This document shows, one piece after another, positions 35,465-61,489 of a stretch of 64,000 bases of DNA (within the stretch, counting starts at the first letter, position 1; each line of letters starts with the position of its first letter). The notes under the pieces are model-generated. The model was not told where the DNA came from and made no database searches. It saw nothing but the letters and a program-made list of their open reading frames with translations. Source of the DNA: a virus; the IMG/VR virus record IMGVR_UViG_3300032046_003126, positions 23,182-87,181 of that record; one strand, written 5' to 3'. A program made the position numbers and the translations under genes.

Positions 35465-37429
35465 ATGACCAAACAAAGAGAAATTTTATCAAACGGAATT
35501 CTTTTTAATTGTGAGTTATGTGATAAAAAAGATATGAAATCAACAGGGTTTTCGAATCATGTTAATAGTATGCATGTGAAAAAAGAAAATATTTCTTCTT
35601 TAGAAGAATATTATAAGTTATATATAAATTTAAAATGGGGCAATTCAAATAATTTATGTAAATTTTGTAATAAAGAAACAAAGTTTATGTCAATTTTCGA
35701 AGGATACTCAGAGTTTTGCTCGCATCAGTGTTCGGTGTCTACTACTGAACATAAAGAATTAATTAAAGTAAATTATAAAATTTCTATGTTGGAAAAATAC
35801 GGAGTAGAACATTCAAGTAAACTTTCTGGATTTGGTGATAAGGTTAAAGCTACTAAGCTAAAAAAACATGGGGATGAAAATTTTAACAATATTGAAAAAG
35901 CAAAATTAACTAATCTGGGTCGCTATGGTGTAGAAAATTATGCTAAATCTAATGAATATGTTGAAAAAACAAAAGCAACATCACTGGAAAAATATGGTGT
36001 AGAACACTTTACACAAAACGAAGAAGTTAAAAACAAAACAAAACTAACTAATTTAGATCGTTATGGTTTTGAAAATCCAATGAAAAACGTTGAAATATAT
36101 AATAAATCAAAAGAAACTAATTTAAAAAGATATGGCGTAAAACATGCTACTCAATATGAATTTTTTAGAAATAAAACAAAAAAAACTTTAATGGAAAAAT
36201 ATGGAGTTGACAGTCCTTTAAAATTATTTCATACAAGATTAAAATCAAAAACATCTATAAGAAAAAAGTTTGAAGATAATTTTAATTTTTTAGAACAAAC
36301 TAAATTAAAACTATTAGATTCAAATGAATTAAAATTTAAATGTCTTGTTTGTAACAATGATTTTATTTTTGAACCCGAAGGGGAATATAAATATTTATCT
36401 TCTAATTCTTCTACACCTTCAAGGTTTCCTCATTGTAAAATATGCAATCCCGTTGGAGCACGAGATGGTTCATCAATTCAAAAAGAAATTTATTCTTATA
36501 TTTGTTCTTTTTTTGATAAAGAGAAAATTAAAATAAACGATAAAAGTATATTAAAAAACATAAACAAACAAGTTGATATTTATATAGAAAATAAAAATAT
36601 TTCTTTTGAAATAAATGGTTTATATTGGCATTCTGAGATTGGCGGCAACAAAGGAAAAACATATCATGTTAATAAAACAAATTTATCAGAAGCAAAAAAT
36701 ATTAAATTAATTCATATTTTTGAAGATGAAATTAATGATAAAAATAAAATAATTAAATCAAAATTAGATTATCTATTAAATAATACAAAAAATTCTAAAT
36801 CAATAGGCGCAAGAAAATGTGTTATTAAAAAAACAAATAAAAAAGAATACTTTGATTTTTATGAAAACAATCACTTACAAGGGAAAGTTATAGGAGGAAA
36901 TATTTCATATGGTGCATTTTATAATAATGAACTTGTTGCCTGTATGACGTTTGGCCAAGAAAGAATTTCTTTAGGCAGCAAGAATCATACAAACAAAAAC
37001 GAGTTTGAGTTGCTTAGATTTTGTACAAAAATAGGATATGTAATTCCTGGTGTAGCGAGCAGGTTATTTAGTCGTTTTATAAAAGAAAATAATCCCAATA
37101 AAATCATATCTTATGCTGATAGAAGATGGAGTAGTTCTATTAATAAAGACACCGTTTATCAAAAACTTGGTTTTACAGAGGTTCATAAATCTGAACCAAA
37201 TTACTTTTATTTGCTTAAAGAAGATAATTATAGGAAAAGACATAACAGATATAAATTTAGAAAATCAGAACTAAATAGGTTATTATCTATATACGACCCA
37301 GCGTTATCAGAGTGGGAAAATATGAAAAATAATGGACACGATAGAATCTGGGATTGTGGGACAATAAAATATGAGTGGAAAAACAAAACCGTACAAGAAA
37401 ATATCGAATTGGGAAGTTCTAACTCCTAA
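35465..37429 (+). CDS. Homing endonuclease inside the fractured terminase gene (Vsr-like)
   Basis: A 654-aa endonuclease with its own GGAG Shine-Dalgarno. In order: a C2H2-like finger (CELCDKKDMKSTGFSNHVNSMH), a second Cys-rich finger, about six EKYGVEH/NLxRYGVxN DNA-binding repeats (about residues 100-265), a third finger (CLVC...CKIC), and a Vsr-like nuclease domain (VDIYIENKNISFEINGLYWH, then LIHIFEDE). A C-terminal GNAT-like domain of phage homing enzymes follows (FYENNHLQG, LLRFCTKIG, ISYADRRWS, RIWDCG). It lies between the two intein halves and overlaps the C-terminal precursor start by 59 bases. It is the mobility enzyme expected to spread this fractured locus. Confidence 0.92.
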   Translation: MTKQREILSNGILFNCELCDKKDMKSTGFSNHVNSMHVKKENISSLEEYYKLYINLKWGNSNNLCKFCNKETKFMSIFEGYSEFCSHQCSVSTTEHKELIKVNYKISMLEKYGVEHSSKLSGFGDKVKATKLKKHGDENFNNIEKAKLTNLGRYGVENYAKSNEYVEKTKATSLEKYGVEHFTQNEEVKNKTKLTNLDRYGFENPMKNVEIYNKSKETNLKRYGVKHATQYEFFRNKTKKTLMEKYGVDSPLKLFHTRLKSKTSIRKKFEDNFNFLEQTKLKLLDSNELKFKCLVCNNDFIFEPEGEYKYLSSNSSTPSRFPHCKICNPVGARDGSSIQKEIYSYICSFFDKEKIKINDKSILKNINKQVDIYIENKNISFEINGLYWHSEIGGNKGKTYHVNKTNLSEAKNIKLIHIFEDEINDKNKIIKSKLDYLLNNTKNSKSIGARKCVIKKTNKKEYFDFYENNHLQGKVIGGNISYGAFYNNELVACMTFGQERISLGSKNHTNKNEFELLRFCTKIGYVIPGVASRLFSRFIKENNPNKIISYADRRWSSSINKDTVYQKLGFTEVHKSEPNYFYLLKEDNYRKRHNRYKFRKSELNRLLSIYDPALSEWENMKNNGHDRIWDCGTIKYEWKNKTVQENIELGSSNS

Positions 37430-37748
37430 AGGCTTTAAGTCATTTTCGGGTATTAAAAAAGTAAACAAAGAATATTCTTTAAAATTCACAACAGAATTTG
37501 ACAAAGAAATAACCTGTTCTGGTGGTCATCAACTTTATGTAAAAAGAGAACTAGAAGGTCAAGAGTCTGAGGAAATGTTTTGTTTTGCTGATATGATTGA
37601 GCCTTATACAGATAAAATAAAAAACAAAGTTGGAGAATATGAAACTGTTATTGAGATAGAAAAAACAGAAAAAGAAATTGATTTATTTGATCTTGTTGAT
37701 GTAGAAGATGGATATGAGTATTACGCCAATGATTTATTAAGTCATAAT
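37371..37748 (+). other. Split-intein C-fragment (IntC, 126 aa)
   Basis: WEVLTPKGFKSFSGIKKV near the start resembles the opening of the AceL-TerL C-fragment. A block B-like segment (SGGHQLYV) follows, then block F/G DLVDVEDGYEYYANDLLSHN with the terminal Asn, and Cys as the first extein residue. All chemistry needed for trans-splicing (Cys1 on IntN, terminal His-Asn, Cys+1) is present. Confidence 0.92.
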
Positions 37749-39719
37749 TGTGCTCACATTGAGAACTTTTCTGAGTTGTGGACCGGCCTTCAGCCCACAA
37801 TATCTTGTGTGACTGGTGATACATTAATATTAACAGATAATGGATTTGAAAAAATAGAAGATTTTCATAAAACACATAATGTTGGAGATTATTTTAAACT
37901 AGAAATACCAATTTATGGAAAAAATGGAATGGAAAAAACGTCTCACGGATATGTTTCACCTGAATCAGATACCATTATTATAAGAACCAAACATGGACAT
38001 GAAATAGAATGTACTCTAAAACATCCATTGTTTGTGTATCAAAATGGTAAAAATGATGGAGTGATGATCGAATCTCGAAATATTACGATAGGTAATAAGT
38101 TGAGAATTCAAACAGGAATGAAGTGTTATGGAACCAATACTAAAAACATAACATTATTGGAGGCCAAAAACACAGCATTAAAATATTCCAAGTCATTAAT
38201 TTTTGATGAAAATTTGGATTTAGATAGTGATATCTTGACCGCAAATGAAATATTTGTAAAAAATTATTTAAAAGAACTTATCAAAATCTGTTGTGTGGAA
38301 ACAATAGAAACCATAAATAAAAAAATATTTAAAATAGAAATTAAAAGTAAAGGTTTTATAAAAAAACTTAATTTACTTTTTCATAACGATGGATATAAAT
38401 CATATATTTTAAAAGAAAAAGAAAAAATCTTTCTTTGTGTTCCATTTGAAGAAACGAAAGATAATTTTTATTGGGATGAAATTGTTTCTATTGATAAATC
38501 TAAAAATAAAACATATGATTTTACAGTTCCAAAAACACATACTTTTTTACAAAACGGAATTTTAGGAAGCAACACAGGAGGCTCTGCTATTTTAATTTCT
38601 ACTCCTTTGGGAATTGGAAATCAATTCCATAGCATATGGGCAAAAGCAACAGATAAAAACTTTGACCCGGCCAATATTAAAACAAACGAAGAGGGTTCAA
38701 ATAAGTTTTATGCGATAGAATTACCATGGACAGTACATCCCGAAAGAGATCAAGAATGGTATGAATCGCAGTGTTCCGAGTTGGGAAATGATCCTCGTCG
38801 TATTTCCCAGGAACTTTTATGTGCTTTTAATTCATCTGGTAACAATTTCATTGACAGTAAAATATTAGAATATTTAAAAACACAACTTAAAACTCCAATT
38901 GCGAGATATGGCAATGGCAACGATATGAATATATGGGAATATGCAAAACCAGGCCATAAATATATAATCTCAGCTGACGTAGCTCGTGGAGATTCGGAAG
39001 ATTTTTCAACAGCTTGGATTATAGATGCAGACACTAATATCTGTGTAGCTGATTTTAAAAGCAAAATACCTCCTGATAGATTTGCAGAATTTTTAGTTGA
39101 TATTGGAGAAAAATACAACAAAGCATTTATTGTCAACGAGATTAATAGTGTCGGGGTAGCTACTTCTTTTGCGTTGAAGACATTAAAATATCAAAATTTA
39201 TATTTTGAAAAACTCTTTAATGGTTCAATTGAAAACAACTATACACAAGATATGATAGGAGACTTAATCCCAGGATTTAATACTAATGTTAAATCCAGAG
39301 TAGAAATAATGACAAAATTTGAGGCTGCAATAAGAAATAAAGAAATACAAGTATATTCTGATAGGCTTATTAAAGAACTCGAAACATTTATTTGGGATGG
39401 GAAAAAAGCAAAGGCTTTAAAAGGCTACAATGACGACTTAATAATGGCGTTAGCAATAGGAGTTAACTTTATCAATTGGGGGGCCGCTAGAAGCACGTAT
39501 GACGATGGTGCAAGTATAATGGCTATGATTCAAGGAATGTCAAAGAACTCTAGAACTCTAGAACAATTAACCAAACAACAATCAGAGCCCAATACAGTAG
39601 ATTGGGGTAATATTGGCTTTGATCTGCCATCCAAGGGAAGTATTTATTCTAATTCTAATACTAAAAATAATATTTTTGTAGGAGGAACAAGAATTCCAAG
39701 TTGGATTAAACAAAGTTAA
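37371..39719 (+). CDS. 17: Large terminase C-terminal precursor with IntC and a second intein
   Basis: A 782-aa precursor. Residues 1-126 are the split-intein C-fragment. Residues 127-145 are terminase extein CAHIENFSELWTGLQPTIS, matching T4 gp17 just after Walker B. Residues 146-401 are a second, contiguous intein. Residues 402-782 are the terminase remainder: coupling motif AILISTPLGIGNQFHSIW, then the RNase H-like nuclease with SADVARGDSED (Asp ~535), VNEINSVG (Glu ~589) and YNDDLIMA (Asp ~688). After both splicing events the mature protein would be 565 aa, close to T4 gp17 (610 aa). It starts inside the endonuclease gene. Confidence 0.93.
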   Translation: MSGKTKPYKKISNWEVLTPKGFKSFSGIKKVNKEYSLKFTTEFDKEITCSGGHQLYVKRELEGQESEEMFCFADMIEPYTDKIKNKVGEYETVIEIEKTEKEIDLFDLVDVEDGYEYYANDLLSHNCAHIENFSELWTGLQPTISCVTGDTLILTDNGFEKIEDFHKTHNVGDYFKLEIPIYGKNGMEKTSHGYVSPESDTIIIRTKHGHEIECTLKHPLFVYQNGKNDGVMIESRNITIGNKLRIQTGMKCYGTNTKNITLLEAKNTALKYSKSLIFDENLDLDSDILTANEIFVKNYLKELIKICCVETIETINKKIFKIEIKSKGFIKKLNLLFHNDGYKSYILKEKEKIFLCVPFEETKDNFYWDEIVSIDKSKNKTYDFTVPKTHTFLQNGILGSNTGGSAILISTPLGIGNQFHSIWAKATDKNFDPANIKTNEEGSNKFYAIELPWTVHPERDQEWYESQCSELGNDPRRISQELLCAFNSSGNNFIDSKILEYLKTQLKTPIARYGNGNDMNIWEYAKPGHKYIISADVARGDSEDFSTAWIIDADTNICVADFKSKIPPDRFAEFLVDIGEKYNKAFIVNEINSVGVATSFALKTLKYQNLYFEKLFNGSIENNYTQDMIGDLIPGFNTNVKSRVEIMTKFEAAIRNKEIQVYSDRLIKELETFIWDGKKAKALKGYNDDLIMALAIGVNFINWGAARSTYDDGASIMAMIQGMSKNSRTLEQLTKQQSEPNTVDWGNIGFDLPSKGSIYSNSNTKNNIFVGGTRIPSWIKQS
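37806..38573 (+). other. Second terminase intein (256 aa), endonuclease degenerate
   Basis: It begins CVTGDTLILTDNGFEKIEDF (block A), has block B TLKHPLFVY, and ends with block F/G YDFTVPKTHTFLQNGILGSN before Thr+1. The penultimate residue is Ser instead of the usual His. The middle ~130 residues include IFVKNYLKELI and IEIKSKGFIKKLNLLFHNDG, which resemble one half of a LAGLIDADG domain without the catalytic acidic residue, so it is probably a mini-intein with an endonuclease relic. Confidence 0.9.
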
Positions 39720-39778: not shown

Positions 39779-39784
39779 TTGGAT

Positions 39785-40883: not shown

Positions 40884-41396
40884 ATGAAAATTAAAGCTAT
40901 AATAACAGCTTGTGGATATGTTGAAACTAATAGAATAGCTTCAAATTTATGGTGTCCATATGCTGATTCCGAAGAAATGACTGTAAATGACGCTATAACA
41001 AAATTAGCTTTTGATTTCTTAAGAACATATCAAGAATCAGCCACATTTGATTATTTCTCAGAAGATGATTTTAAACAATATATTATTAATTCTTGTTATG
41101 GTGAAATAAACGATTGTTTTTGGATTGATGATGAGCACACTACTTTTACTCCATATAATAGTTTTACTGAATTGTTTTTTATAGAAAAATTTGAGACAAT
41201 TTTTATTGATTCGGATTTTGAGAAAATAATTCTTTCATTTATTAACGAAGAGATGTTAAAGGCTGTTTTTGGCACAGATATAAAATATGATTTAAATGAA
41301 TTTAACTACACAAATTCTAAATGTATAATTTACAATCAAGATGATGAGTATTTTAAAATAGAATTTGATTATAAGAAATTGTATGAAAAAAAATGA
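40884..41396 (+). CDS. Unknown acidic protein in ATP-grasp operon
   Basis: A 170-aa acidic, Phe/Tyr-rich protein with an AAGGA Shine-Dalgarno. No domain is recognised. It overlaps the second ATP-grasp gene by four bases, so it belongs to the same operon. Its acidity (many Asp/Glu and Phe) fits a small binding protein, but no function can be assigned. Confidence 0.65.
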   Translation: MKIKAIITACGYVETNRIASNLWCPYADSEEMTVNDAITKLAFDFLRTYQESATFDYFSEDDFKQYIINSCYGEINDCFWIDDEHTTFTPYNSFTELFFIEKFETIFIDSDFEKIILSFINEEMLKAVFGTDIKYDLNEFNYTNSKCIIYNQDDEYFKIEFDYKKLYEKK

Positions 41397-42151
41397 AAGT
41401 ATTTGCACAAAAAAACAAAGATGGCGAATGGGCTAGTGTGCCTGTTTCTAATTCTGTTAGAGGTTTTGATTTCAAGGGATATGAAATAATTCCATATCTA
41501 TACGAAAACATTGACTCTATTGGTATAGAAAAAGAAGATATTATAGTCGGAGGAATTCCATGTGTGAGAGCAATATTAAATAAATTTGATTTTCAGGTTC
41601 CAAATTTATCAATTCCTCATGATGGCCTACTTCAGTTTTGTGAAAGAAAGTTTAACTTAATAACAATTAGAGAATTAAACAATATAGTAAATAAAGAAAA
41701 ATTTGATAAGTTTTTTATCAAGCCATATAAAGAGCATAAACTTTTCACTGGACATATTGTTAGCTCGTTTAAAGATTTATTCAAATCAATGCATGTACCC
41801 GAAGACACTGAAATAGTATCATCAGACTATGTTGAATTTATAAGCGAATATAGAATATTTGTAACAAATGGAGAAATAAGAGGAATGAGTCATTATGGTG
41901 GCGATTTTCTTGTGTTTCCAAACAAATTTGTTATAAAAATGTTAGTTAAAAAAGCATATGAAATATATGGTTTAAATGGATTTTCTGTAGACATAGGGAT
42001 TACACGAGATAATAAAACTTTATTGGTTGAGTTGAATGATGGTTTTTCTCTGGGTTGTTATGGTCTAAACTATCTTGAGTATACCAATTTAATAGAAGCA
42101 AGATGGAAACAATTAAATGAAACAAGTATTAATAATAAGAAAAGATCTTAA
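41393..42151 (+). CDS. ATP-grasp domain protein, R2K/DUF4343-like clade (copy 2)
   Basis: A 252-aa ATP-grasp protein related to the one at 39785: KFFIKPYKEHKLFTG carries the Lys of the ATP pocket, SEYRIFVTNGEIRGMSHYGG aligns with EEYRFFILDGKVV in copy 1, and LLVELNDGFSLGCYG carries the metal-binding acidic/Asn motif. Two distinct R2K members in one operon suggest successive ligations or two substrates. It overlaps the Pth2 gene by 35 bases. Confidence 0.78.
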   Translation: MKVFAQKNKDGEWASVPVSNSVRGFDFKGYEIIPYLYENIDSIGIEKEDIIVGGIPCVRAILNKFDFQVPNLSIPHDGLLQFCERKFNLITIRELNNIVNKEKFDKFFIKPYKEHKLFTGHIVSSFKDLFKSMHVPEDTEIVSSDYVEFISEYRIFVTNGEIRGMSHYGGDFLVFPNKFVIKMLVKKAYEIYGLNGFSVDIGITRDNKTLLVELNDGFSLGCYGLNYLEYTNLIEARWKQLNETSINNKKRS

Positions 42152-48642: not shown

Positions 48643-49488
48643 ATGTCAAAAGAACTTATTAAACAATTAATAAAGGAGTTATTAAAAGAAACTCCAATAG
48701 AAGATATTACTAGAATAGGCGACTTTAGTAAAAGACATTCAATTGTTAATCCAGTAGACAGAGCTTTGTTGTCTTCTCCAAAAGCAGAAGTTAAAATAAG
48801 AAAAATTTGGGAAAATACACCTGGAATATTTAATCTTGTTTTCATAAACGATCCAAGAGTAAAAGGTGAAGAGTTTAAAGAAGTTGGAGAAGTTTCGGAA
48901 AATTTCATTAGAACCAAGATGAAAATATCTGAAGAAGAACTTCACATAGACCCTGAAGCTTGTACCATCATATACACTAATAATCGTGGAGATGAAAGAG
49001 TAATGGCAACTGGATGGATTTTAGCACATAGACTTTCTCATAGCCTTTCTAGGGGAAATCCAAGTTATTGGTCAAGTTTCTCAACTCACTTAACAAACAT
49101 TTTTAAAAATTTACTTAATGATGTTTACGGCATACAAATGAGTACAAGCTCCATTGTTCCAAGAGATGAACAACTTTTAATGAAGTTGGCAGCACAACAA
49201 ATAGGAACAATGAAGTCGGCGAGAGATTCTAATTTAAGAAATTGGTATGAATTTGGTCACGAATTGTTTGCTCAATATTTACTCACAGGTTCGATTAAAT
49301 TTAACAAATTGCCTGACTCCTTGGTTACTGATGTACAGGCGTTTGGAAGAAAAAGAAACACTAAAGTATTCGATACAGATACACAAGAAACTTACAATAG
49401 ACATGACCTTGAATATTTCGCTAGTATTATAGAATCAGAGATTGAGTCTATTGTTGAATCTATTCAAGGTAAAATATTTGTGATGTAG
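48643..49488 (+). CDS. Tagged protein with degenerate zincin motif (HRLSH)
   Basis: A 281-aa protein. It starts with MSKELIKQLIKELLKE, one of six helical tags of this kind in the region. The body has a zincin-like layout in which HExxH is replaced by HRLSH (WILAHRLSHSLSRG, about residues 124-137). A later segment FGHELFAQYLLTG resembles the third-ligand helix. Either the catalytic Glu was lost or a variant zinc site is used. The tag suggests packaging in the virion. Confidence 0.6.
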   Translation: MSKELIKQLIKELLKETPIEDITRIGDFSKRHSIVNPVDRALLSSPKAEVKIRKIWENTPGIFNLVFINDPRVKGEEFKEVGEVSENFIRTKMKISEEELHIDPEACTIIYTNNRGDERVMATGWILAHRLSHSLSRGNPSYWSSFSTHLTNIFKNLLNDVYGIQMSTSSIVPRDEQLLMKLAAQQIGTMKSARDSNLRNWYEFGHELFAQYLLTGSIKFNKLPDSLVTDVQAFGRKRNTKVFDTDTQETYNRHDLEYFASIIESEIESIVESIQGKIFVM

Positions 49489-49511
49489 TTTTTTAATTAA
49501 TTCTGAATTAC

Positions 49512-49530
49512 ACAAATATTTAATATTTGT
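49512..49530. repeat. 19-bp palindrome, copy 1
   Basis: ACAAATATTTAATATTTGT: two 9-base arms around one central T, 25 bases upstream of ATG 49556. The identical sequence lies 24 bases upstream of the minus-strand ATG at 50727. It is an operator or 5'-UTR hairpin candidate. Confidence 0.65.
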
Positions 49531-49555
49531 AAAAAGGTTTTTAGAGAGAAATTTT

Positions 49556-49942
49556 ATGAAAATTACAGTTAAACAACTTAGAAAAATTATTAAAGAAGAA
49601 TTATCAAAACATTCATTTAATTCTATTGATGACATATCAGATGAAAACGACATAAACCAACAAAGTGATTTTGAGAAATCCTTAAACGTAGAAGATTTCT
49701 CAGTATACGACACAATTTTATCAAAAATACGAAAATCACCAGAAATGAAACAAAGATTTTTATCTAAACAACCAGCAGAGATTGCGCGTGAATATAAGCT
49801 TGATACAAGTCAACGTTTGCTTTACCTTATTTCTAATTTACAGCAACAAGTAATAGAAGATGATTTTGATTCAGACAACCCCTACAGACACCCTGAAGGG
49901 ACTTATCGTCTGTCTAAAGATGACGAATGGGTAGAAGTCTAA
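49556..49942 (+). CDS. Tagged unknown protein
   Basis: A 128-aa protein opening MKITVKQLRKIIKEELSK, nearly identical to the start of the minus-strand gene ending at 50218. The rest is acidic, with no recognised domain; the C-terminus has NPYRHPEGTYRLSKDDEW. The Shine-Dalgarno is AGAGAG-like. It is preceded by palindrome copy 1. The shared tag suggests a common fate, such as head packaging and cleavage after IKE. Confidence 0.65.
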   Translation: MKITVKQLRKIIKEELSKHSFNSIDDISDENDINQQSDFEKSLNVEDFSVYDTILSKIRKSPEMKQRFLSKQPAEIAREYKLDTSQRLLYLISNLQQQVIEDDFDSDNPYRHPEGTYRLSKDDEWVEV

Positions 49943-50040
49943 TAGACTGTCTATTTTAGCTACTATTGGTAGGTGTTTATGATTACAATCACAATAGGTA
50001 CTCACCTAAAAGAATATTACGTTTTAATAGATTAAAACAA

Positions 50041-50074
50041 AAAAAGATTCCCTTTTTAAGAGGAATCTTTTTTT
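50041..50074. terminator. Bidirectional rho-independent terminator
   Basis: AAAAAGATTCC (50041-50051) pairs with GGAATCTTTTT (50062-50072) around a 10-base loop, followed by T on the + strand and preceded by A-rich sequence, so it can terminate both strands. It separates the + gene ending at 49942 from the convergent minus gene ending at 50218. The rest of 49943-50217 has no gene. Confidence 0.8.
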
Positions 50075-50217
50075 ATTATATTTTTTCCTAAAGTAGTTTT
50101 AGGCTGCCATTGCATATTCTTGCCCTGCCGGGATCCAATTGTCAAAATTAATTATATCTTAACAAACTAAAAGTTTAAACTGTTGAGTTAAAATTATTTA
50201 TATATTAACCAGAAATT

Positions 50218-50727
50218 TTATCTAATTTTTCTTACTGCTTGTAAATATTCTTGCTCGGAATATTCTTCCCCATTCAAAAACCAATATTTTTTGCCATTGC
50301 TATGTTCAAGTGCTGGACCATCAAGCCTATGACGTTTTCCATTCAACCACCACTGTTTTGTTCCATTATCATAAATTGCCGGGCCGTCTTCTCTGTGCAG
50401 TTTTCCATTCAAATACCATTGGTTATTTCCATCTGCCCATTCTCTTGCTGGACCATCTTCTCTGTGATATTTGTCATTCAAATACCACTCTTTATATCCA
50501 TTTGCCCATTCAACAGCCGGACCATCTTCTCTGTGAAGTTTTCCATTTAAATACCACTGTTTTGTTCCATCTGCCCATTCAATTGCCGGACCATCTTCTC
50601 TGTGAAGTTTGTTATTCAAATACCATCCTGTGACTAAAGCACCATTTCCATCACGAGTTGGTTTCTGAATTGGTTTTGATAATTCTTCTTTAATAATCTG
50701 TCTAAGTTGTGACTTTGTAATTTTCAT
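50218..50727 (-). CDS. Tagged protein with ~23-residue MORN/YwqK-like repeats
   Basis: A 169-aa protein. ATG at 50727 is preferred, giving MKITKSQLRQIIKEELSK, nearly the same tag as at 49556. The rest is about six copies of a ~23-residue repeat of the form GxxxWYLNxKLHREDGPAxEW, similar to MORN-like or YwqK-type antitoxin repeat proteins. The repeats are also near-identical in DNA (about 69 bases each, 50260-50640), a likely site of copy-number change. The protein probably forms a beta-ribbon binding surface. Confidence 0.75.
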   Translation of the reverse strand: MKITKSQLRQIIKEELSKPIQKPTRDGNGALVTGWYLNNKLHREDGPAIEWADGTKQWYLNGKLHREDGPAVEWANGYKEWYLNDKYHREDGPAREWADGNNQWYLNGKLHREDGPAIYDNGTKQWWLNGKRHRLDGPALEHSNGKKYWFLNGEEYSEQEYLQAVRKIR

Positions 50728-50746
50728 AATTTTTTTTCCAGGCAAT

Positions 50747-50775
50747 ATTTCACAAATATTAAATATTTGTGAAAT
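50747..50775. repeat. Extended palindrome between divergent genes (copy 2 of the 19-bp element)
   Basis: Arms of 14 bases (ATTTCACAAATATT / AATATTTGTGAAAT) around one central A, containing the 19-base core found at 49512 (reverse orientation, 50752-50770). It lies between the minus gene starting at 50727 and the plus gene at 50821, the typical place for a shared operator. Confidence 0.68.
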
Positions 50776-50820
50776 TTAGAATTATCATTTTTTATTAACA
50801 TCGTAAATATAGTTACTTTT

Positions 50821-51261
50821 ATGTTAATAAAAGAATATATAAAGTTGTTAATAAAAGAAGAACTTAACAAAACAGATAAGACAGAAAAAGATTTAGAATT
50901 GTTTTTAAAAACTGTTGTACCTAATTTAATACAACACTGTATGATTAGAACAAATTCTGTAAAAGTCTGTGGATATATTTCGGAAGATTTTAACAAACTT
51001 GCATTAGATGCCGGGTTTGATAGTAGAGTAATGTCAAATTCTAGACATTTTACTAATTTAGTAAGATTAGTAGATGGCGACTATGAAGTTGACCTATCTA
51101 ATATTCAATTCCAATTCTCTGAGGATAATGTAGAAAAATACAACGACGAAGCCGGGAAAGATATATATTCGTATCACGGCGAAACAATGGAGACTCAGAG
51201 ACTTTTGGATATTGTTAAAACCGATCCATTTAAAGCAATAAAAGTAACCAAGTTAGTTTAA
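50821..51261 (+). CDS. Tagged unknown protein
   Basis: A 146-aa protein starting MLIKEYIKLLIKEELNK, another helical tag with an IKE site. The body has no recognised domain; it contains strands VKVCGYISEDF and NLVRLVDGDYEVDLS. It is transcribed divergently from the repeat protein and lies upstream of the PilX-like gene. Confidence 0.65.
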   Translation: MLIKEYIKLLIKEELNKTDKTEKDLELFLKTVVPNLIQHCMIRTNSVKVCGYISEDFNKLALDAGFDSRVMSNSRHFTNLVRLVDGDYEVDLSNIQFQFSEDNVEKYNDEAGKDIYSYHGETMETQRLLDIVKTDPFKAIKVTKLV

Positions 51262-51341: not shown

Positions 51342-51965
51342 ATGAAAATAAAAATAAACAAAAAAGAAGAAGGCGCAGTAATGATGATCGTTGTGTTGTT
51401 GTTGATGATTGTAACTGCATCTGGGGTTTATGCCGTTCACGCGACAACCTCAGAGCTTCGTGGATCTGGTGCAACAAGAAATGCATATCAAGCTGAAATC
51501 GCCGCTTCATCAATAACAGAAGCCGCAATTGATTTGACAAACAGGATTGGTCCTGGCAATCTATATAGACGAGCAATTAATAATTCCCCCTTGAATCTCT
51601 CAGGAGTAGAAAATCCATCAAGTCTGTCTTCGGGAATGATTGGAACCCGATTATATGAAACAGATATCAATAATAATTTACCAATTAATATTATTGGTTC
51701 AAATAGCTTAAACAATGGTGTACCACAAACTATTCAAGGAGTTGTTGATGTTTATGATATGTATAGGTTTACTGGTTCTATTGCTGGAAATAGGTCCGAT
51801 GGGCAAGGTCATCTTTCTTATTTAAAAGCAACATATACGGGCCGCACAAGAGTTACCTTGCCAATTCTAGAAGGAAACTCTGTTTCTCCACAAGAAATTC
51901 GAGAACAACAGACTACAACATCTACGACTAGACTCATAGCAACATCTGGTCCATTCAATTTTTAA
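51342..51965 (+). CDS. PilX-like minor pilin assembly protein
   Basis: A 207-aa protein with a class III (prepilin-type) N-terminus: a short basic leader ending KKEEG, then AVMMIVVLLLMIVTASGVYA, and a following segment SELRGSGATRNAYQAEIAAS as in PilX minor pilins (ERMAGN...AFQAAEAAL pattern). PilX proteins help start type IV pili and deliver PilY1 to the tip. The gene is more GC-rich than its neighbours and is followed by the PilY1-like gene, the usual cellular pairing. No ribosome site is strong; an upstream in-frame GTG at 51300 is possible. Confidence 0.82.
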   Translation: MKIKINKKEEGAVMMIVVLLLMIVTASGVYAVHATTSELRGSGATRNAYQAEIAASSITEAAIDLTNRIGPGNLYRRAINNSPLNLSGVENPSSLSSGMIGTRLYETDINNNLPINIIGSNSLNNGVPQTIQGVVDVYDMYRFTGSIAGNRSDGQGHLSYLKATYTGRTRVTLPILEGNSVSPQEIREQQTTTSTTRLIATSGPFNF

Positions 51966-51998
51966 TTCTCTTTATATGTAACACAAGGTTCCACTATT

Positions 51999-54900
51999 AT
52001 GAAAAACAATTCCGCCATTAATATAATTTTCTATTCATTTCTTTTATTTGTTTTATCATTGACGGCAATCAACAAAGCACAAGGACAAATAACAACACCT
52101 GATGCTAGAAATATTGCTCCTGCTGTTATGTTATTATTGGATAGTTCTGGTTCTATGGAACGAGTGAACAATTGCATTTGTACGACGAGTAATTGTAACG
52201 AATGCTTGCCTACTTGCTCAAATACAAATACTGGAGTCAATCAACAGAATCGTTGGTCTGTTATTGTTCAGGCACTTGGTGGAGATTATTCACCTTTCAA
52301 ATGTTTACAAACCACTCGTCCTCTTTCTACTCCAGATTTTGGTTATAATATTCCATTTTATTCTTTTACTGGTTCCCAATCAGTTACTAATGGAATTTTA
52401 GATACATATGGAATAAGAGTTAGGTTTGGTTTAATGACATTTGATAATACACCAATGGTTGTTGGTGCATCTTCTTTGTATACATCTTCAAATTATCTTG
52501 CAAATAATACTACGACAAATTGGCAAGGAGACTTTTCTTATGGGCCAAATCGAGTTTTTTCTTTACCTGGAATCATGTTTGCATACATGATTAATAATGG
52601 TGCAAGAAGTGAAAATGCCTTAAATCCAACTTATGGAAGATTGTTTTCTACAGGCTCAAATTCTACAACCTCTCAATCAAGAGCTGCACTTGTAAAAGCA
52701 GAACTTCCTCTTATTCGTCCATATGGCGGTAGACCAATTGCCGCAATGTTACATGATTATGAATATTATCTAAATAATCATGTAGATGTTGTTGATGACC
52801 CATATAATGATTGTAGACAACAAATCGCAATTCTTATTGTTAATGGATATCCGAATAGTGATATGCGTGGAAGTCCTTATTTTTGTGAAGATACATCTTC
52901 AGGTGGCGTTTGTCCATATGATGAACCTGAGATAATCGCTGCAAGAATTTCTAATTCATCTAATAGAAAAGTTTATGTTATTGGACTTGGAAATGAAGTT
53001 GTTTCTGACCCAACACTTGTTTCAAAATTAAACTTTATTGCTCAATACAGCGGTACAAACAATGCATTGTTTGCAAACAATGCCTCTACACTAAGAACAC
53101 AAATAGCCTATATATTAGATATAACCGCCACAGGAACAACATCTCGTTCCATTCCAACAATTAGTTCTACAGCGGCTTTGATAAACAATAGTTCACCTGT
53201 TCAATCTCAATATAATTCAGGATTTACTCTTGGAACAAATGGTGGACCATATAACGGCATTCTCGAAAGACACAGAACACATTGTGTTAATACAACTCCC
53301 ATTGCTCAAACAATTGATAATACTGATAGATTTCATATGATTTTGAATCAAAGAATTTCTAGTAGAACACTTTATACAATTGTACCACGAAGTGCAACAA
53401 ACACAACAGGATATCTAATCGGCATAGGAAATGCCATTCCGCCTCTTAGTTCTACTTCTGGTGGTGGTGGTAATAGCTCAAATCAAACACATGGAAATGG
53501 TGGAAGTAGTTGCAGAACTCCAGGACCAGGAAATACTAATCAAAATAATTCTTCTGTTAGTCCAACTGCTTCTGAAAGTGGCCTAGTTTTAACAGCATTT
53601 AATTCAAACAATGTTACTGCTGCGCATCTTGGATTAACTTCTGGTTCTTCTGCTGTAAGAAATGCTGAAAGGGATAGAATTGTAAATTGGATTCATGGAG
53701 CAAACAATATTAGAGGCACTCTTGTTTCAAGACTTGGAGACATATATCACTCTTCTCCAATTGTTGTTGGCAGACCTCAGTTTAGTATTCCAGATGAATC
53801 ATATAATGAATTCAAACAATTGCCGGTTGTAGCAAACAGACCTTCTGTTTTATATGTTGCATCAAATGATGGAGTTTTACATGCATTTATAGCAGAAACT
53901 ATTACTGTAACTGCTGGTCCATATGCCGGTAGGACATTCACAGCCGGTGAAGAATTATGGGGATTTATTCCACCATATGTTTTACCAAAACTTCAAAGTG
54001 CAACATCGGTACATACTTGGACAGTAGACGGAACTCCATATGTCAGAGAAGTATTTTACAGAAAACTTCCTGGGCAAGCTGCCGATGCAAACATATATCA
54101 TACTGTTTTAATTGTTCCTTTGGGAAAAGGCGGTGGAGCATATATTGCTCTTGATATAACTAATCCATTAGTCCCAATATTTTTATGGCAATTTACTTCT
54201 AATAACATGGGTACAACTATGGGAGCACCTGCAATCGCTCAAGTGTTAATTTCCGTTAACGGAAATCTTGAAGAAAGAGCTATGGCAATATTGCCTTCTG
54301 GATATAAAGATCCTATTGACCCAAATACTTGTGGTCCAACAATTAATGGAGATTCTTGGAGTCAGCCACTTGGTTGTAGTTCAAACGGAATTGGTACACC
54401 TCCTCTAAATGCCGGAACACAAAACGCTGTGAATCATCATAGATGTTGGAACGTTGATGGAAGACAGGTATACTTTATTGATCCTTCAACTGGTCAACTT
54501 ATTAAGTCAATTGGAGATACTGTTTTCAATGCTCCAATGACTGGTGGTATTGGTTTATATTCAGGAGATACAGGAACTATTACCACAAGAGCATTTATGA
54601 CAGATGCAGATGGGTTCCTTTGGAGATTTGATTTGTCTAGTTCTAATCCTTCCAATTGGTCTGCTCTGCAATTTGCTGATCTGTTTGTTGATTTGCATAA
54701 TCAATATCCGAATGTTGGACAACCAAGTTATTTTGCTCCAGTAATAAGTACAAATGCTGCTGGTGAACTTGTTGTTATTCAAGGAACTGGAAATATTGAT
54801 TATCTTGATGGAACTGCTCCAAATAGAATTGGTTCATTTACAGAAACAATGAATGGTAATACTGTTGGAATTAGAACAAATTGGACTATTGCTTTACCTT

Positions 54901-55376
54901 CAGGCGAACAAATGACCGGACCAATTCAACTTTATGACAGTACAGCTTATTTTACAACCTTTTCTTCTACTGGAACTTCTACAAATACTTGTCAATTAGG
55001 TACAAGTTATATTTGGGGAGTTGACTTCACAGAAGCTTCTAGTGGTTCACCAACACCACGATTACAAACATCTGCATCAACATACGCTCAAAAGGTTTCA
55101 GCGGGGAATAACGTGCTTCTTGGAGCAGCACTTGCACAAGAACTTAGTTGCACAACAACAACTCCTATTGTTACCTATGATTCATACGTTGGAGGAAATA
55201 TATCTGGATATAATATAACTGGTTCTGGTGGAGGAGGCTATAGAATGTTTGGATTAGTTGGAGGCATTTCTTCTTCAGCTATTACAAATGGAAGTTCTAT
55301 TGGTGAATTTAATAGAACTTTAGAGAGTCCAGCAAACTATACGAGAATAGATGGATATGTTGGCAGGGCCGAATAA
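51999..55376 (+). CDS. PilY1-like type IV pilus tip adhesin
   Basis: A 1125-aa protein with a signal peptide (residues 1-~30, cut near KAQG), a von Willebrand A domain with a MIDAS motif VMLLLDSSGSME (about 43-54), and a Cys-rich insert (NNCICTTSNCNECLPTC). The C-terminal PilY1 propeller (about residues 580-1090) has GDIYHSSPIVVGRP, VLYVASNDGVLHAF, WGFIPPYVLP and TDADGFLWRFDLSS. In bacteria it sits at the pilus tip for adhesion and retraction control. In a phage it could change host pili, block pilus-using competitors, or serve in the virion; this is open. Confidence 0.88.
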   Translation: MKNNSAINIIFYSFLLFVLSLTAINKAQGQITTPDARNIAPAVMLLLDSSGSMERVNNCICTTSNCNECLPTCSNTNTGVNQQNRWSVIVQALGGDYSPFKCLQTTRPLSTPDFGYNIPFYSFTGSQSVTNGILDTYGIRVRFGLMTFDNTPMVVGASSLYTSSNYLANNTTTNWQGDFSYGPNRVFSLPGIMFAYMINNGARSENALNPTYGRLFSTGSNSTTSQSRAALVKAELPLIRPYGGRPIAAMLHDYEYYLNNHVDVVDDPYNDCRQQIAILIVNGYPNSDMRGSPYFCEDTSSGGVCPYDEPEIIAARISNSSNRKVYVIGLGNEVVSDPTLVSKLNFIAQYSGTNNALFANNASTLRTQIAYILDITATGTTSRSIPTISSTAALINNSSPVQSQYNSGFTLGTNGGPYNGILERHRTHCVNTTPIAQTIDNTDRFHMILNQRISSRTLYTIVPRSATNTTGYLIGIGNAIPPLSSTSGGGGNSSNQTHGNGGSSCRTPGPGNTNQNNSSVSPTASESGLVLTAFNSNNVTAAHLGLTSGSSAVRNAERDRIVNWIHGANNIRGTLVSRLGDIYHSSPIVVGRPQFSIPDESYNEFKQLPVVANRPSVLYVASNDGVLHAFIAETITVTAGPYAGRTFTAGEELWGFIPPYVLPKLQSATSVHTWTVDGTPYVREVFYRKLPGQAADANIYHTVLIVPLGKGGGAYIALDITNPLVPIFLWQFTSNNMGTTMGAPAIAQVLISVNGNLEERAMAILPSGYKDPIDPNTCGPTINGDSWSQPLGCSSNGIGTPPLNAGTQNAVNHHRCWNVDGRQVYFIDPSTGQLIKSIGDTVFNAPMTGGIGLYSGDTGTITTRAFMTDADGFLWRFDLSSSNPSNWSALQFADLFVDLHNQYPNVGQPSYFAPVISTNAAGELVVIQGTGNIDYLDGTAPNRIGSFTETMNGNTVGIRTNWTIALPSGEQMTGPIQLYDSTAYFTTFSSTGTSTNTCQLGTSYIWGVDFTEASSGSPTPRLQTSASTYAQKVSAGNNVLLGAALAQELSCTTTTPIVTYDSYVGGNISGYNITGSGGGGYRMFGLVGGISSSAITNGSSIGEFNRTLESPANYTRIDGYVGRAE

Positions 55377-55407: not shown

Positions 55408-56796
55408 TTATTTGTTTCTAGGTTTTTTCTTTTTTGTGCCAAGTTTTTTCTGTCCTGGTGCTGTACTCATACCAAGTGGTAAAGTATATCCAACAATTGC
55501 ACCGCCGCCGACAGCACTAAATTCTTTTAGTTCTTCTTCAACCATTTCTTCAATTATTTGTTTTAAAGCTTTCTTTGATTCATCAATCATACCAAGACCC
55601 ATCATTGGCTTATCTTGATTAAGATTATCTGCCACTTTTTTAACAACTTTTTTAGAATGTTCTGTGTTGGGGTCGTTTTTATCAATATACACTTTATCTA
55701 AGCCTGGTAATGCATTTTTTCTTATTTTATTTGTTGCCAGAGTATGACCAAGTTTGTCTGCTATGTTTTTTTCGCTCATAATTTCTCTTTCTAGTGATTC
55801 GTTTTTAAAAGACTTGTCAGTCCATTCTTCTTGTTCTTCGGCTTTTTCTGGGTCTATTTGACTTTGTATTGATAAATACGTTGCAGGTATTGTTCCTTGA
55901 TAACCCAGTGAATCATATGTGGATAATACTGAGGTATAAAAATTTGGAACTTCTGTGTCTACATATCCATAAGAAATAGAACCATCATACTCGTTACGCA
56001 AAACATCTTCGTCTATTACTAATTTCGAGTAATCTTTTAATGCCGAGCCTTCTACTTTAATCACAATAGTTCTTTCTTCAAAACGATTTGCTAATTCATC
56101 TGCTATTTGTTCGGCATAAGATAAATTTGATGTCAAATAGACAGCATTTCTTAACTTAAGATTAAATTGTGTCCACCCTTCACCTTGTTCTTGTTTTGCT
56201 TCTTTGGAAGGTAATAAGCCTTTAGTTTTTATTGAGGACCAGTTGGAATATCTAGTAGCATGGTACCATGGCATTTGAGTTATAGGTTTTAAGACTTTAA
56301 CTTTGAAAGACTCGTATTCATCAACACCCGAAGTTCTTTCTTTTTTAAATTTGCCTTTAACATTTTTGACATTTTTAATCAAGTTGTTTGCTTGGCCAAT
56401 TGGTTCATATGTTTTTTCCCAAGAATTTTCATCAGTATTTTCAATAACTACTGTTGCATTTAATAATTCAGGTATTTGTTCAATGGCAGATTGAATAGAA
56501 ATTGCTGTTCTTGGGTCAAGTAAAGAACGCTCATTTGGCAAAATTATTGTATGATTTGTTTTATCATAAACAAATAAAGCATCTTTAAAATTAATACTCT
56601 GTGAAGGATCAAAACCACCAACAGTCTTATTTCCTTTTTCTGGCACAAGACTATTTGGATTATACTTGATATAAGGTGTATTGTTTTTTTTCAAATAACT
56701 ATAAAATAATTCTTTAGAATATTCGGGATGTAATTTATAATCTATAGTAGATTTAATTTCCTCAAGAATAAGTTCTTTTAGTTTTAATAATTTCAT
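55408..56796 (-). CDS. Tagged protein with ADP-ribosyltransferase/KptA-like domain
   Basis: A 462-aa protein starting MKLLKLKELILEEIKS (tag with an ILE site). The middle (about residues 176-255) looks like the ADP-ribosyltransferase/RNA 2'-phosphotransferase fold: MPWYHATRYSNWSSIKTKGL opening strand-helix, AVYLTSNLSYAEQIADELA and RTIVIKVEG. The C-terminus has a second tag-like helix (LKQIIEEMVEEELKEF), a Gly-rich AVGGGAIVGYTLPLG and a Lys tail. T4 packages ADP-ribosyltransferases such as Alt in its head and injects them; the tag makes a similar role likely here. Confidence 0.7.
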   Translation of the reverse strand: MKLLKLKELILEEIKSTIDYKLHPEYSKELFYSYLKKNNTPYIKYNPNSLVPEKGNKTVGGFDPSQSINFKDALFVYDKTNHTIILPNERSLLDPRTAISIQSAIEQIPELLNATVVIENTDENSWEKTYEPIGQANNLIKNVKNVKGKFKKERTSGVDEYESFKVKVLKPITQMPWYHATRYSNWSSIKTKGLLPSKEAKQEQGEGWTQFNLKLRNAVYLTSNLSYAEQIADELANRFEERTIVIKVEGSALKDYSKLVIDEDVLRNEYDGSISYGYVDTEVPNFYTSVLSTYDSLGYQGTIPATYLSIQSQIDPEKAEEQEEWTDKSFKNESLEREIMSEKNIADKLGHTLATNKIRKNALPGLDKVYIDKNDPNTEHSKKVVKKVADNLNQDKPMMGLGMIDESKKALKQIIEEMVEEELKEFSAVGGGAIVGYTLPLGMSTAPGQKKLGTKKKKPRNK

Positions 56797-56797
56797 A

Positions 56798-57493
56798 TCA
56801 ACTATTATTTCTTTGAGAATTAATATTCGTTATTACTTTTTGTAATTCTTGTAATGAAGTTGTTGCACTTGTATGTAAAATTCCAATTCCACCAGCATTT
56901 ATAAATGGATTAACATATTTTTCTCTATCATCAATTAAAACTGCACCAGGTTTAGCATATTGGCTTTTATTTTTAGTACAATGGAAAGAAGAAAATTTTC
57001 CTGCAAAGTTATTATTCATCCATTGAAGTTTTTCTTTTTCACATATTTCCATGCTGCCATCAATTGGCGCAGTTAATATACCTGGCAAATTACCAGTCAT
57101 TGAAATAACTCCGTCAACAAGTTGTGAAGCATCAGGCATTTGCTGTAGATTAAGAAAAAAACCAGGTTCTCCCGCAACTAGATATTTTTTTGACTTAAAT
57201 TCATTCCATGAATTTTTTAATGCTTTTAATCCTGGGTCTGTTTGAACGCCAGCTAGTGATTTTTTTATTTGTTCATCAGAAAGATTTTTGAACTCTTCAT
57301 TAGAAGACAAGATTTTTTCATATTCTTCTTTATTTTTCTTTAATTGAGCATTATCATAAAAAGAAGTTTCTATATCTGCCAATACACCATCCATGTCAAG
57401 ATATACAACTATTTTTGGAGGATTAGGATATTGAACATTATACAGTTCATTTTCTACTAATATTTTTATATAATTTTTTAATTGCTGTGTCAT
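56798..57493 (-). CDS. Tagged HAD-superfamily phosphatase, 5'(3')-deoxyribonucleotidase-like
   Basis: A 231-aa protein. The first ~17 residues (MTQQLKNYIKILVENEL) are a tag-like helix. A HAD fold follows: VVYLDMDGVLAD (catalytic Asp pair, about 29-40), SMTGNLPG, and the C-terminal acidic motif GAVLIDDREKYVNPFINAGG typical of NT5C-like phosphatases and nucleotidases. Substrate not determinable. It abuts the ART-like gene on the same strand (one-base gap), so the two are co-transcribed. Confidence 0.75.
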   Translation of the reverse strand: MTQQLKNYIKILVENELYNVQYPNPPKIVVYLDMDGVLADIETSFYDNAQLKKNKEEYEKILSSNEEFKNLSDEQIKKSLAGVQTDPGLKALKNSWNEFKSKKYLVAGEPGFFLNLQQMPDASQLVDGVISMTGNLPGILTAPIDGSMEICEKEKLQWMNNNFAGKFSSFHCTKNKSQYAKPGAVLIDDREKYVNPFINAGGIGILHTSATTSLQELQKVITNINSQRNNS

Positions 57494-57527
57494 TAGACTC
57501 TTTCAAATATAGATTAAATATTACTCT

Positions 57528-59459
57528 TCATTCATATAAAACTTTTTGTTTTATATTGTTTTTTCTTTCAACAGACTCCAACATTTTCATTTCAATGGAA
57601 TCATTAGCGATCAAGTGATGAACATGTGTCTCGTTTTTTTGCCCAATTCTAGATATTCTGGCAATACGTTGTTTTGTTTGAGCAGGATTCCAGCCAACTT
57701 CTAAAAGAATGGCTATGTTGCTTGCTTGCTGCAAACCGTCCAAGCCAACTCCACCCGCACCAGATAGAAAGATTATTTTACAATCTGGATTATTTGTGAA
57801 CTCTGATACTGCCTTTACTCTTTGTTTTGCGTTCTGTTCACCAGTAAATAAAACCGAATTTATATTATGTTTTTTAACAGTTTCTTCTTGAAAAATTTTC
57901 AAGACTTCAACAAAATCAGAAAAAACAACAATTTTTTTATTTTCTTCAACACAGTACTTGTCAACAAGTTCTATAAATCTATCTAGTTTAGCTGAAGAAC
58001 CTGTGTAGTAGTCATCAAACAATTTTCTAGAAATTGTGCTTTGTCTTGCCTTCAACATAAATGCTTGTAGTTTTATTTTTTCTATTGGGCTTAGAGGCTT
58101 TGACATTCCCTTTGATTGTAATATTTTTGCTTGCTCATAATTGTCATCATGAATAGCTTTTTCTTCTTTTGTTAATTCAACCATTTCGTCATGTTCTATT
58201 AGTGGAGGCAGCGAAAGATTATCGAAAGAAAATATACTACATTTCAATTTATCTTTTAATTTATCTACGTTTTTAACGCCGCCATATATTATGTGGTGTT
58301 CATTAAATGTTAAGATATTTTGAAATTGTGAATCAAATTTCCATTTTGGACCAAGAAATTTTGGATTAATAATGTTCATCACATTGTATAAGTCATCTAG
58401 TTTGTTTTCTATTATTGTACCACTTAATCCAAGCATATATTCTGTTTTAAGCTTAGATATTGCTTTCCATGCAAGTGTTTGTTTGTTTTTAACATATTGC
58501 ATTTCATCACAAATAATCATATCATATTGAATATGTTTTATTGAATCCACTGATTTTGCTAGAAGCTGATATGTTATTATTCCTATGTTTGGTTTAGAGG
58601 AAGTATAATCGACTATATCTTTTTGATTATCTAACAACACACTATCTCTGTTAGTTCTCACAGCAAATTCTTTTTTCCATTGCGCTTTCAGTGACTTTGG
58701 GCAAATGATCAATAATTTTAGATCTTTTTCTAGGATTTTGGTAAGACTTTCATAAGAAGCTATGGCACAAATCGTCTTCCCAGCCCCCATCTGCATGGAC
58801 ATAATTGCTTTTTTTGCCGCAATCATTTTTTTAAAAATGTCTTCTTGGTAGTCATATAAATTTGTATTGATTAATAATCCATTAGAATTAATGCCTAAAT
58901 CTATCAAGGCATCTAATCTTTCTTTATATTCTTCTTCGAAATTTTTATTTTTATAATGATTTATATTTATTGATTCTTTTACAGAGTCACCTTCGCCAAC
59001 AACAATAAGTTTTTGATTTTTTGGGTCAAATATTTTTAGTTTGTTACCGACATATTCTTCTATTGTTTCCGGTAGGAGTAATCTTTTAGAAGAGAATAAA
59101 TCAATCCATGTTTTGTTAAGAGTTTTTATTTCATTGTCTCTTAATATTCTATTAAACACAGCTACATGATCACAATAGTTTAGTTGAGAATCATTAAATA
59201 AAGAACAACTACAAACAATAAGAGACATTTTTTTTGTAAAGATCTGAACTACATTTCTTTTTTTTGCACCATCTACTATTTGTATTTCTAAAAAACTCTT
59301 TTCGGATTCGTTTATTTTTAATTCATATTTTTTATTAAATGAATAATACAAATATTTTCTTAATTCCAACTGAACAGGATTATTTATTACAGGGAAAACT
59401 TCCTTTATAATCTTGTTTGTTTTTTCTTTAGAAGTTTCATTTAATTTTAGGACAGTCAT
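57528..59459 (-). CDS. SNF2-family helicase/ATPase with SWIM zinc finger
   Basis: A 643-aa protein. The N-terminus has a SWIM-type finger (VCSCSLF, then YCDHVAVF, about residues 92-112). Then helicase motifs: Walker A SMQMGAGKTICA (about 223), LLIICPKSLKAQW, Walker B IICDEMQYVKN, LSGTIIENKLDDL (motif III), IFLSGAGGVGLDGLQQA (V) and QRIARISRIGQ (VI). SNF2 enzymes move along duplex DNA and remodel bound proteins; in phages they may assist replication, repair or transcription switching. The first codon ATG at 59459 opens the frame. Confidence 0.9.
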   Translation of the reverse strand: MTVLKLNETSKEKTNKIIKEVFPVINNPVQLELRKYLYYSFNKKYELKINESEKSFLEIQIVDGAKKRNVVQIFTKKMSLIVCSCSLFNDSQLNYCDHVAVFNRILRDNEIKTLNKTWIDLFSSKRLLLPETIEEYVGNKLKIFDPKNQKLIVVGEGDSVKESININHYKNKNFEEEYKERLDALIDLGINSNGLLINTNLYDYQEDIFKKMIAAKKAIMSMQMGAGKTICAIASYESLTKILEKDLKLLIICPKSLKAQWKKEFAVRTNRDSVLLDNQKDIVDYTSSKPNIGIITYQLLAKSVDSIKHIQYDMIICDEMQYVKNKQTLAWKAISKLKTEYMLGLSGTIIENKLDDLYNVMNIINPKFLGPKWKFDSQFQNILTFNEHHIIYGGVKNVDKLKDKLKCSIFSFDNLSLPPLIEHDEMVELTKEEKAIHDDNYEQAKILQSKGMSKPLSPIEKIKLQAFMLKARQSTISRKLFDDYYTGSSAKLDRFIELVDKYCVEENKKIVVFSDFVEVLKIFQEETVKKHNINSVLFTGEQNAKQRVKAVSEFTNNPDCKIIFLSGAGGVGLDGLQQASNIAILLEVGWNPAQTKQRIARISRIGQKNETHVHHLIANDSIEMKMLESVERKNNIKQKVLYE

Positions 59460-61060: not shown

Positions 61061-61489
61061 TCATCCTAGACCAGAGCCACTACCTGGAGTGCTAGGTAAT
61101 CCATAGGAAAGCTCTAGAGAGCCACTAGCAGCCGAGCCGGTGAGTGTTGGATATGAGACGTATTCAATTCCAGTCAGGCCCGCTAGCAAACTGTAAGCAG
61201 CTGTTCCGCCTACCCCCATAACAAATAATTTATTTGTTTTTATATTTATATCAATAGCCTTGGTTGTTGGCAACTCATATCTATTTGTTCCCAGTGTTCC
61301 ATTTCTTGTAAATCCAAATACTAATGTATTTCCGCTGTTATTTTGCAAATATATATGCGAAGTAACATAAGGAAAACTTATTAATTGTGGTGTTGTGATT
61401 GGCGCAACAGAAGCAGTAACCCAAGGCCAACCTGCTGCTTGATACTCTGCTACATTTCCTATTCCTGATTTACTGTTGTTGAAGGTCAT
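61061..61489 (-). CDS. Small beta-rich, Gly/Ser-rich protein, probable virion decoration protein
   Basis: A 142-aa protein with a GGAG ribosome site on the minus strand. It is beta-rich (HIYLQNNSGNTLVFGFTRNG, YELPTTKAIDINI) with a Gly/Ser-rich tail, like compact capsid or fibre decoration proteins. It is more GC-rich than its neighbours. No exact family is recognised; the decoration role is inference. Confidence 0.6.
   Translation of the reverse strand: MTFNNSKSGIGNVAEYQAAGWPWVTASVAPITTPQLISFPYVTSHIYLQNNSGNTLVFGFTRNGTLGTNRYELPTTKAIDINIKTNKLFVMGVGGTAAYSLLAGLTGIEYVSYPTLTGSAASGSLELSYGLPSTPGSGSGLG

Follow-up and report, generated by a model that had tools for sequence, protein, structure and literature searches.

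What use would a phage have for the tip of a bacterial pilus? The question is raised by two adjacent genes, pilX and pilY1 (proteins P0001 and P0002), in a 64-kb stretch of viral DNA, here called the window, which is the last part of the 87,181-bp virus record IMGVR_UViG_3300032046_003126. These genes are intact and of bacterial origin, they have been retained for long, and PilY1 recurs in other phages. We put at roughly 55% the probability that the pair is a phage-supplied replacement tip, or priming pair, for the type IVa pilus of the host, where it would compete with the host's own PilX and PilY1. More tentatively, large phages of Polyangia may repeatedly have taken a pilus-tip adhesin, with which they would re-tip the pili of infected cells and so alter sticking, recognition and entry.

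P0002 opens with a hydrophobic, signal-type segment with an AQGQ-type end (read by eye). In a sequence search of the PDB its only match below E 1 is the C-terminal domain of Pseudomonas aeruginosa PilY1 (3HX6, E 1.8e-8), and the same structure is by far the top PDB match of its AlphaFold2 model (E 2.5e-13, probability 1.00), which was built from 31 aligned sequences with a mean predicted local distance difference test score (pLDDT) of 78.4 and has an alpha/beta region of VWA type ahead of the propeller. By sequence and by fold, then, P0002 has the propeller of the PilY1 tip family; it lies below the threshold of the Pfam propeller model PF05567, a level attained by 28 of the 31 sequences with which it was aligned. 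Against a viral structure library the model gave generic propeller-type matches only. Two of the five metal ligands of the metal-ion-dependent adhesion site (MIDAS) in the VWA domain are changed in P0002, an alteration that rests on one sequence; the complete site (DxSxS, T and D) is typical of one PilY1 subset, and its presence varies among myxobacterial PilY1 proteins, so that it does not define the family (PMC13190605). Adhesion by P0002 is likely altered or lost.

P0001 carries the prepilin leader MKIKINKKEEG followed by AVMMIVVLLLMIV, cut after Gly11 and lacking a Glu at +5. Its match to Pfam PilX_N lies slightly below the cut-off of 25.5 bits in a single-protein search (E 6.5e-5, 23.3 bits) and at that cut-off in a genome search (25.5 bits). 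P0001 also shows full-length homology to PilX proteins encoded upstream of bacterial pilY1 genes, as with that of locus L006 (36% identity, E 1.8e-27), and the alignment with Polyangia extends to the C-terminus (VVDVYDMYRFTGSIAGNRSDG versus VVDVNDSYRFTGIIAGHRSDG), where an SGPF-type end is common to both. A PilX alignment proved too variable to yield a search pattern. The AlphaFold2 model (pLDDT 77.7) is pilin-like in layout, with a helix of 63 residues at the N-terminus and a head of beta-sheet.

An earlier, sequence-only reading of the window had placed a PilX and a PilY1 back to back at 51342-55376, in a phage setting and with no other pilus genes in the window. Open reading frames, PilX_N and 3HX6 bear out the pair, whose genes are 33 bp apart, and phage genes flank it on both sides. 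The claim about other pilus genes extends to the whole 87,181-bp record, where a search for PilX_N and N_methyl returned one match to the former and none to the latter; from the type IVa minor-pilin cluster (fimU-pilV-pilW-pilX-pilY1) these 87 kb hold pilX and pilY1 only. The record is probably a fragment, and the absence of further pilus genes is therefore valid for these 87 kb only.

The bacterial relatives of the two genes point to one source. When PilY1 was scanned against 84,980 bacterial and archaeal species, with one genome per species, near-full-length relatives came mainly from Myxococcota, the first three at 42%, 34% and 33% identity; by inference the best-match class is Polyangia, as the Sorangium genome G008 belongs to it. 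Within this class PilY1 was matched in 127 of 318 genomes at E <= 1e-30, with identity reaching 45% across almost its full length, and, independently of that result, PilX in 44 of the 318 at E <= 1e-6 (32-41% identity). All 18 genomes with a PilX match of E < 1e-20 had a PilY1 match on the same contig, and PilX lay just upstream where coordinates were inspected. The bacterial cluster L007 has more prepilin-type genes upstream, whereas the phage has the last two genes alone. Because both proteins match Polyangia over nearly their whole length, the donor group is, as judged by homology, Polyangia (Myxococcota), relatives of the predatory myxobacteria.

The sequence-only reading had seen, by eye, a guanine-plus-cytosine (GC) content in the pair above that of its neighbours, had taken this to suggest transfer from a host, and had proposed codon use and a phylogeny of the PilY1 propeller as ways to follow it up. 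The difference is real (0.364 for pilX and 0.377 for pilY1 versus 0.294 for the window), and the bacterial origin stands on the homology to Polyangia. The argument from GC fails: the excess is confined to codon positions 1 and 2 (pilY1 has 0.440, 0.494 and 0.158 at positions 1, 2 and 3), which rules out GC as a sign of recent transfer. It follows from the amino-acid composition of the encoded proteins, in which Ser, Thr, Asn, Gly, Pro, Gln and Ala make up more than 50% and Lys 1-2%; in PilY1 the abundant residues are Ser, Thr, Asn, Gly, Pro and Ala, and Lys accounts for 1%. At third positions the AT content of the pair matches that of the phage's native genes, while the closest bacterial homologues have a third-position GC (GC3) of 0.73-0.98. 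Such phage-like third positions indicate that the transfer is old. If the donor resembled these homologues, the genes would have resided in an AT-rich genome until the majority of their synonymous sites had been altered, their frames remaining open. We thus regard the pair as probable old, ameliorated residents of the phage, which speaks against a recent transfer as well as against chimerism with a contig of such bacteria.

PilY1 is not peculiar to this phage. A scan of 2.9 million viral contigs with alignment-based queries, which rely on patterns of short peptides and may overlook some of the family, found it on seven further viral records, listed in the table. Terminase matches occur in G002 and G005 and GroEL-like genes in G001, G004, G324 and G325. 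G005, a second jumbo record, encodes a PilX as well (E 1e-13), some 22 kb away from the PilY1 of that record; PilX_N was searched for in G001-G004 and not found. Single-protein queries for viral kin (PilY1, the helicase and the gene at 55408-56796) gave no relatives where the alignment queries succeeded; a proteobacterial PilY1 alignment used as query found no viral relative, and three PilY1 queries and one PilX query had no match among 50,697 deposited phages. A tree of 40 PilY1 proteins requires at least five changes between bacterial and viral labels and a tree of the Polyangia-type proteins only requires four, both from quick searches with support by the Shimodaira-Hasegawa-like approximate likelihood ratio test (SH-aLRT) only. 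By the approximately unbiased (AU) test, both one common viral clade (p 3.2e-14) and a clade of P0002 with the L085 protein (p 4e-5) are rejected. On these trees the viral PilY1 proteins represent at least four separate captures within the Polyangia-type proteins.

One of these records, G001, was suspected of chimerism on account of its GC-rich left part, a suspicion that found no support: that part also reads as phage-type genes, the pilY1 of L085 has a GC3 of 0.52 as against 0.92 in the nearest bacterium, and the right part has a gene block in common with another PilY1-bearing phage record. This block of three genes, read by eye as resembling the stress kinase system DUF444 (YeaH)-SpoVR-PrkA, lies at 14617-19061 of L088 and at 1322-5853 of L118 (G001). 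In the window, 61061-61489 (minus strand) encodes a Ser/Gly/Thr-rich protein of 142 residues; its relatives flank pilY1 on either side in G324 and G325 (E ~1e-14) and link those two records to the present phage.

The phage copies are also under constraint. Within a clade of four phage PilY1 proteins the ratio of nonsynonymous to synonymous rates (dN/dS) is 0.08-0.11 over about 1415 codons, at a dS of 0.4-2.5, and the corresponding ratio of proportions (pN/pS) is low in every 150-codon block, that is, along the whole protein. Its relatives have 132 columns with a conservation of 90% or more, and P0002 itself retains 123 of these (93%), a share within the range of the bacterial members.

How such a pair might act is suggested by Myxococcus xanthus, in which pilus formation is initiated by a priming complex of FimU, PilV, PilW, PilX and PilY1; this complex is present in the pilus, probably at the tip, and PilX and PilY1 interact inside it (PMC7541494). 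It has been proposed that differing PilY1 proteins equip the tip of the pilus with differing modules (PMC9109919), and in another myxobacterial pilus the minor-pilin tips are interchangeable (PMC12075869). The near-full-length homology of both phage proteins to one bacterial tip pair supports a corresponding role. From the donor we infer a Polyangia-type bacterium as the host of infection, and we infer the export of the pair, its assembly into host pili, competition there and a benefit to the phage. The host prepilin peptidase would process phage PilX and the host Sec system would export phage PilY1; the two would then be built into the pilus apparatus of the host, where they would prime the pilus and form its tip, replacing the host pair or competing with it. 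Phages that bring PilY1 by itself could likewise exchange the working end of the pilus and borrow the remaining parts. FimU, PilV, PilW, PilA and the motors would be contributed by the host, and would be needed, since the phage records that were searched yielded neither an N_methyl minor pilin nor a major pilin. Pili on infected cells would bear a tip specified by the phage which, because two of the five metal ligands of the VWA head are lost, would most likely bind differently or poorly. Adhesion of the host would thereby change, and pilus-dependent phages would lose the native tip, which they may need. The three uses that the sequence-only reading had proposed, namely altered pilus tips, exclusion of competing pilus phages and changed surface adhesion, are all reasonable. 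The data favour substitution of the tip and are compatible alike with altered adhesion or with exclusion of pilus phages; the repeated capture suggests that large phages swap or disable the host pilus tip during infection.

Several observations weigh against such a substitution. A fold search of the P0001 model against the PDB gave no significant match, the MIDAS loss is confined to the P0002 copy, other phage copies keeping these residues, and most of the other phage contigs show PilY1 with no detected PilX, though many are fragments. The host, moreover, is deduced from the donor, yet the phage has 29% GC and Polyangia mostly 60-73%. Large phages can have a GC content below that of their host.

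The main rival is a blocked pilus, in which the pair would enter the machine and fail to support extension, leaving functionally non-piliated cells that resist pilus-dependent superinfection. It takes this rank because M. xanthus PilY1.3 lacking the VWA domain, or carrying a bulky tag, is incorporated and yet the pili are unsupported (PMC7541494), and it would accommodate the two changed MIDAS ligands of P0002 as well as the precedent of the phage proteins Tip, Aqs1 and Zip, which disable type IV pili for exclusion (PMC11656802). A working tip fits better with the intact MIDAS of the other phage copies and with the constraint along the whole length, VWA domain included, and we hold such a poison to be possible, if unlikely. 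Either a replacement tip or a blocked pilus would protect the cell against other phages that depend on pili.

It is more doubtful still that PilY1 sits on the phage particle, its VWA domain and propeller binding the host surface or pili. Similar adhesive folds do occur in phage tail proteins, the propeller has its weak, generic matches among viral proteins, and the pilY1 genes of L115 and L116 sit among glycine-rich, structural-looking genes. The phage PilY1 proteins whose N-termini were read, however, open with an export-type signal segment, and the present phage pairs PilY1 with a membrane prepilin, neither of which is like a virion part; the pair also lies about 23 kb past the structural-type genes, amid accessory and nucleotide-metabolism genes. 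There is very little to recommend the notion that the genes are passengers, host DNA acquired by chance and devoid of a role: large phages do carry many host-derived genes, but here the frames are open despite near-complete change at third positions, highly conserved columns are retained, related phage copies have a dN/dS of ~0.1 and capture was repeated and independent. An assembly chimera of a phage and a bacterial contig, which the sequence-only reading had named as fatal to it if found at 51.3 and 55.4 kb, is highly improbable given a GC3 in the pair (0.158 in pilY1) that equals the phage's and is remote from that of every bacterial homologue, the phage genes on both flanks and the independent viral records that carry PilY1 within a phage context.

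The contig is that of a large tailed phage, with an intein-containing terminase large subunit and other hallmark genes on the same contig (SbcC, thymidylate synthase, GroEL); the nearest deposited relative of the terminase is that of Salicola phage SCTP-2 (440 kb), at 28.6% identity. The genes upstream of the pair include the terminase, thymidylate synthase, an amidase, an SbcC-like nuclease and large structural-type genes, along with a weak baseplate-J match; downstream, a GroEL gene follows the nucleotidase and helicase given in the table.

Features of the window (positions in its own numbering) and further viral records with PilY1
Feature	Position	Strand	Basis or remark
pilX-like gene, P0001, 207 aa	51342..51965	+	prepilin leader, Pfam PilX_N
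pilY1 gene, P0002, 1125 aa	51999..55376	+	signal-type N-terminus, VWA domain, C-terminal PilY1 propeller
VWA MIDAS first motif DSSGS, residues 48-52, kept	52140..52154	+	alignment columns 48, 50, 52
MIDAS Thr position, Arg245 in P0002 (Thr in 25/28 others)	52731..52733	+	alignment
MIDAS last Asp position, Asn282 in P0002 (Asp in 25/25 others)	52842..52844	+	alignment
Terminase large subunit with intein domain	37371..39719	+	marks contig as phage
Four phage genes directly 5' of the pair, proteins opening with a common leader (MKITVKQLRKIIKEEL or MKITKSQLRQIIKEEL)	48643..51261	three +, one -	context, outside pilus function
Phage genes directly 3' of the pair: phrog_11974, 5'-deoxyribonucleotidase, SNF2-type helicase	55408..59459	-	
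Viral PilY1 record G001, 54.6 kb (L085)			
Viral PilY1 record G002, 361 kb (L086)			
Viral PilY1 record G003 (L087)			
Viral PilY1 record G004 (L088)			
Viral PilY1 record G005, 328 kb (L089)			
Viral PilY1 record G324 (L115)			
Viral PilY1 record G325 (L116)			

Leaders like those of the four genes directly upstream of the pair also occur in the PilY1-bearing records L085 and L088. On account of their likeness to the capsid-targeting leaders of T4 internal proteins, they may mark proteins that are packaged in the head. At 49498-50784, inverted-repeat arms, some 62 nt (85%) and others 37 nt (92%) in length, surround the divergent starts of two of the leader-bearing genes and include the palindromic element ACAAATATTAAATATTTGT. 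Behind its common leader, the protein of 50218-50727 (minus strand) has repeats of ~23 residues (69-nt DNA repeats, NGKLHREDGPAxEW type). A shared regulatory motif near the pair was considered and rejected: CTACTATTGGTA occurs exactly at 49960 and 55389, and tolerant matches reach only about twice the chance number. Sigma-70-like sites near the pair are fewer than expected by chance. Elsewhere in the window, 30228-33434 encodes a single protein of 1068 residues in which a calcineurin-like phosphoesterase at the N-terminus is followed by an SbcC part at the C-terminus, as in an SbcD-SbcC fusion, and two R2K-clade ATP-grasp genes lie close together at 39761-40627 and 41393-42151. The family match of the GroEL-like frame at 62400-63815 (minus strand), near the contig end, starts only at about residue 75-100, marking either a truncated gene or an assembly edge.

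To our knowledge few phages have been described for Polyangia, and the pair suggests hosts in this class for large phages with no assigned host. The protein families are known; what would be new is the action of a phage on host pili through a structural tip pair. A literature search, with papers in subscription journals outside its reach, found no report of a phage-encoded PilY1, and phages go unmentioned in a survey of myxobacterial PilY1 proteins from 2026. That PilY1 was captured repeatedly and is under strong purifying selection argues for the pilus tip as a control point in these infections, and a phage tip pair would offer a natural experiment on which of the tip's parts governs adhesion, the priming of pili and the entry of phages.

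The nearest known systems are the myxobacterial PilX-PilY1 clusters (Polyangiales PilY1 clade 1.4a, PMC13190605; M. xanthus clusters 1-3, PMC7541494), whose homologues have the same order, with a PilX_N prepilin directly upstream of a PilY1 that has a VWA domain and a propeller; clade 1.4a is named for comparison, and phage PilY1 is a candidate for placement in it. The phage pair differs in being phage-borne, without fimU, pilV and pilW, in its AT-rich codons and in its two changed MIDAS ligands. P. aeruginosa PilY1 (3HX6) resembles P0002 in propeller fold and in sequence, at 17% identity over the structural match, although its calcium loop is not evident at the aligned position (alignment read by eye). 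The exchangeable Kil (Tad) tips of M. xanthus (PMC12075869) are likewise alternative tip complexes that retarget one pilus, but they are chromosomal and of Tad type, with three minor pilins and no PilY1. Tip, Aqs1 and Zip, finally, are phage proteins that, as the present pair would, act on the host type IV pilus, possibly in superinfection exclusion, and such small inhibitors of the pilus motor shield Pseudomonas from other pilus-dependent phages (PMC11656802). They are small cytoplasmic proteins acting on PilB or PilZ, whereas the phage pair would be a structural tip outside the inner membrane and, if this is true, a mode of pilus control other than that of the motor inhibitors described so far.

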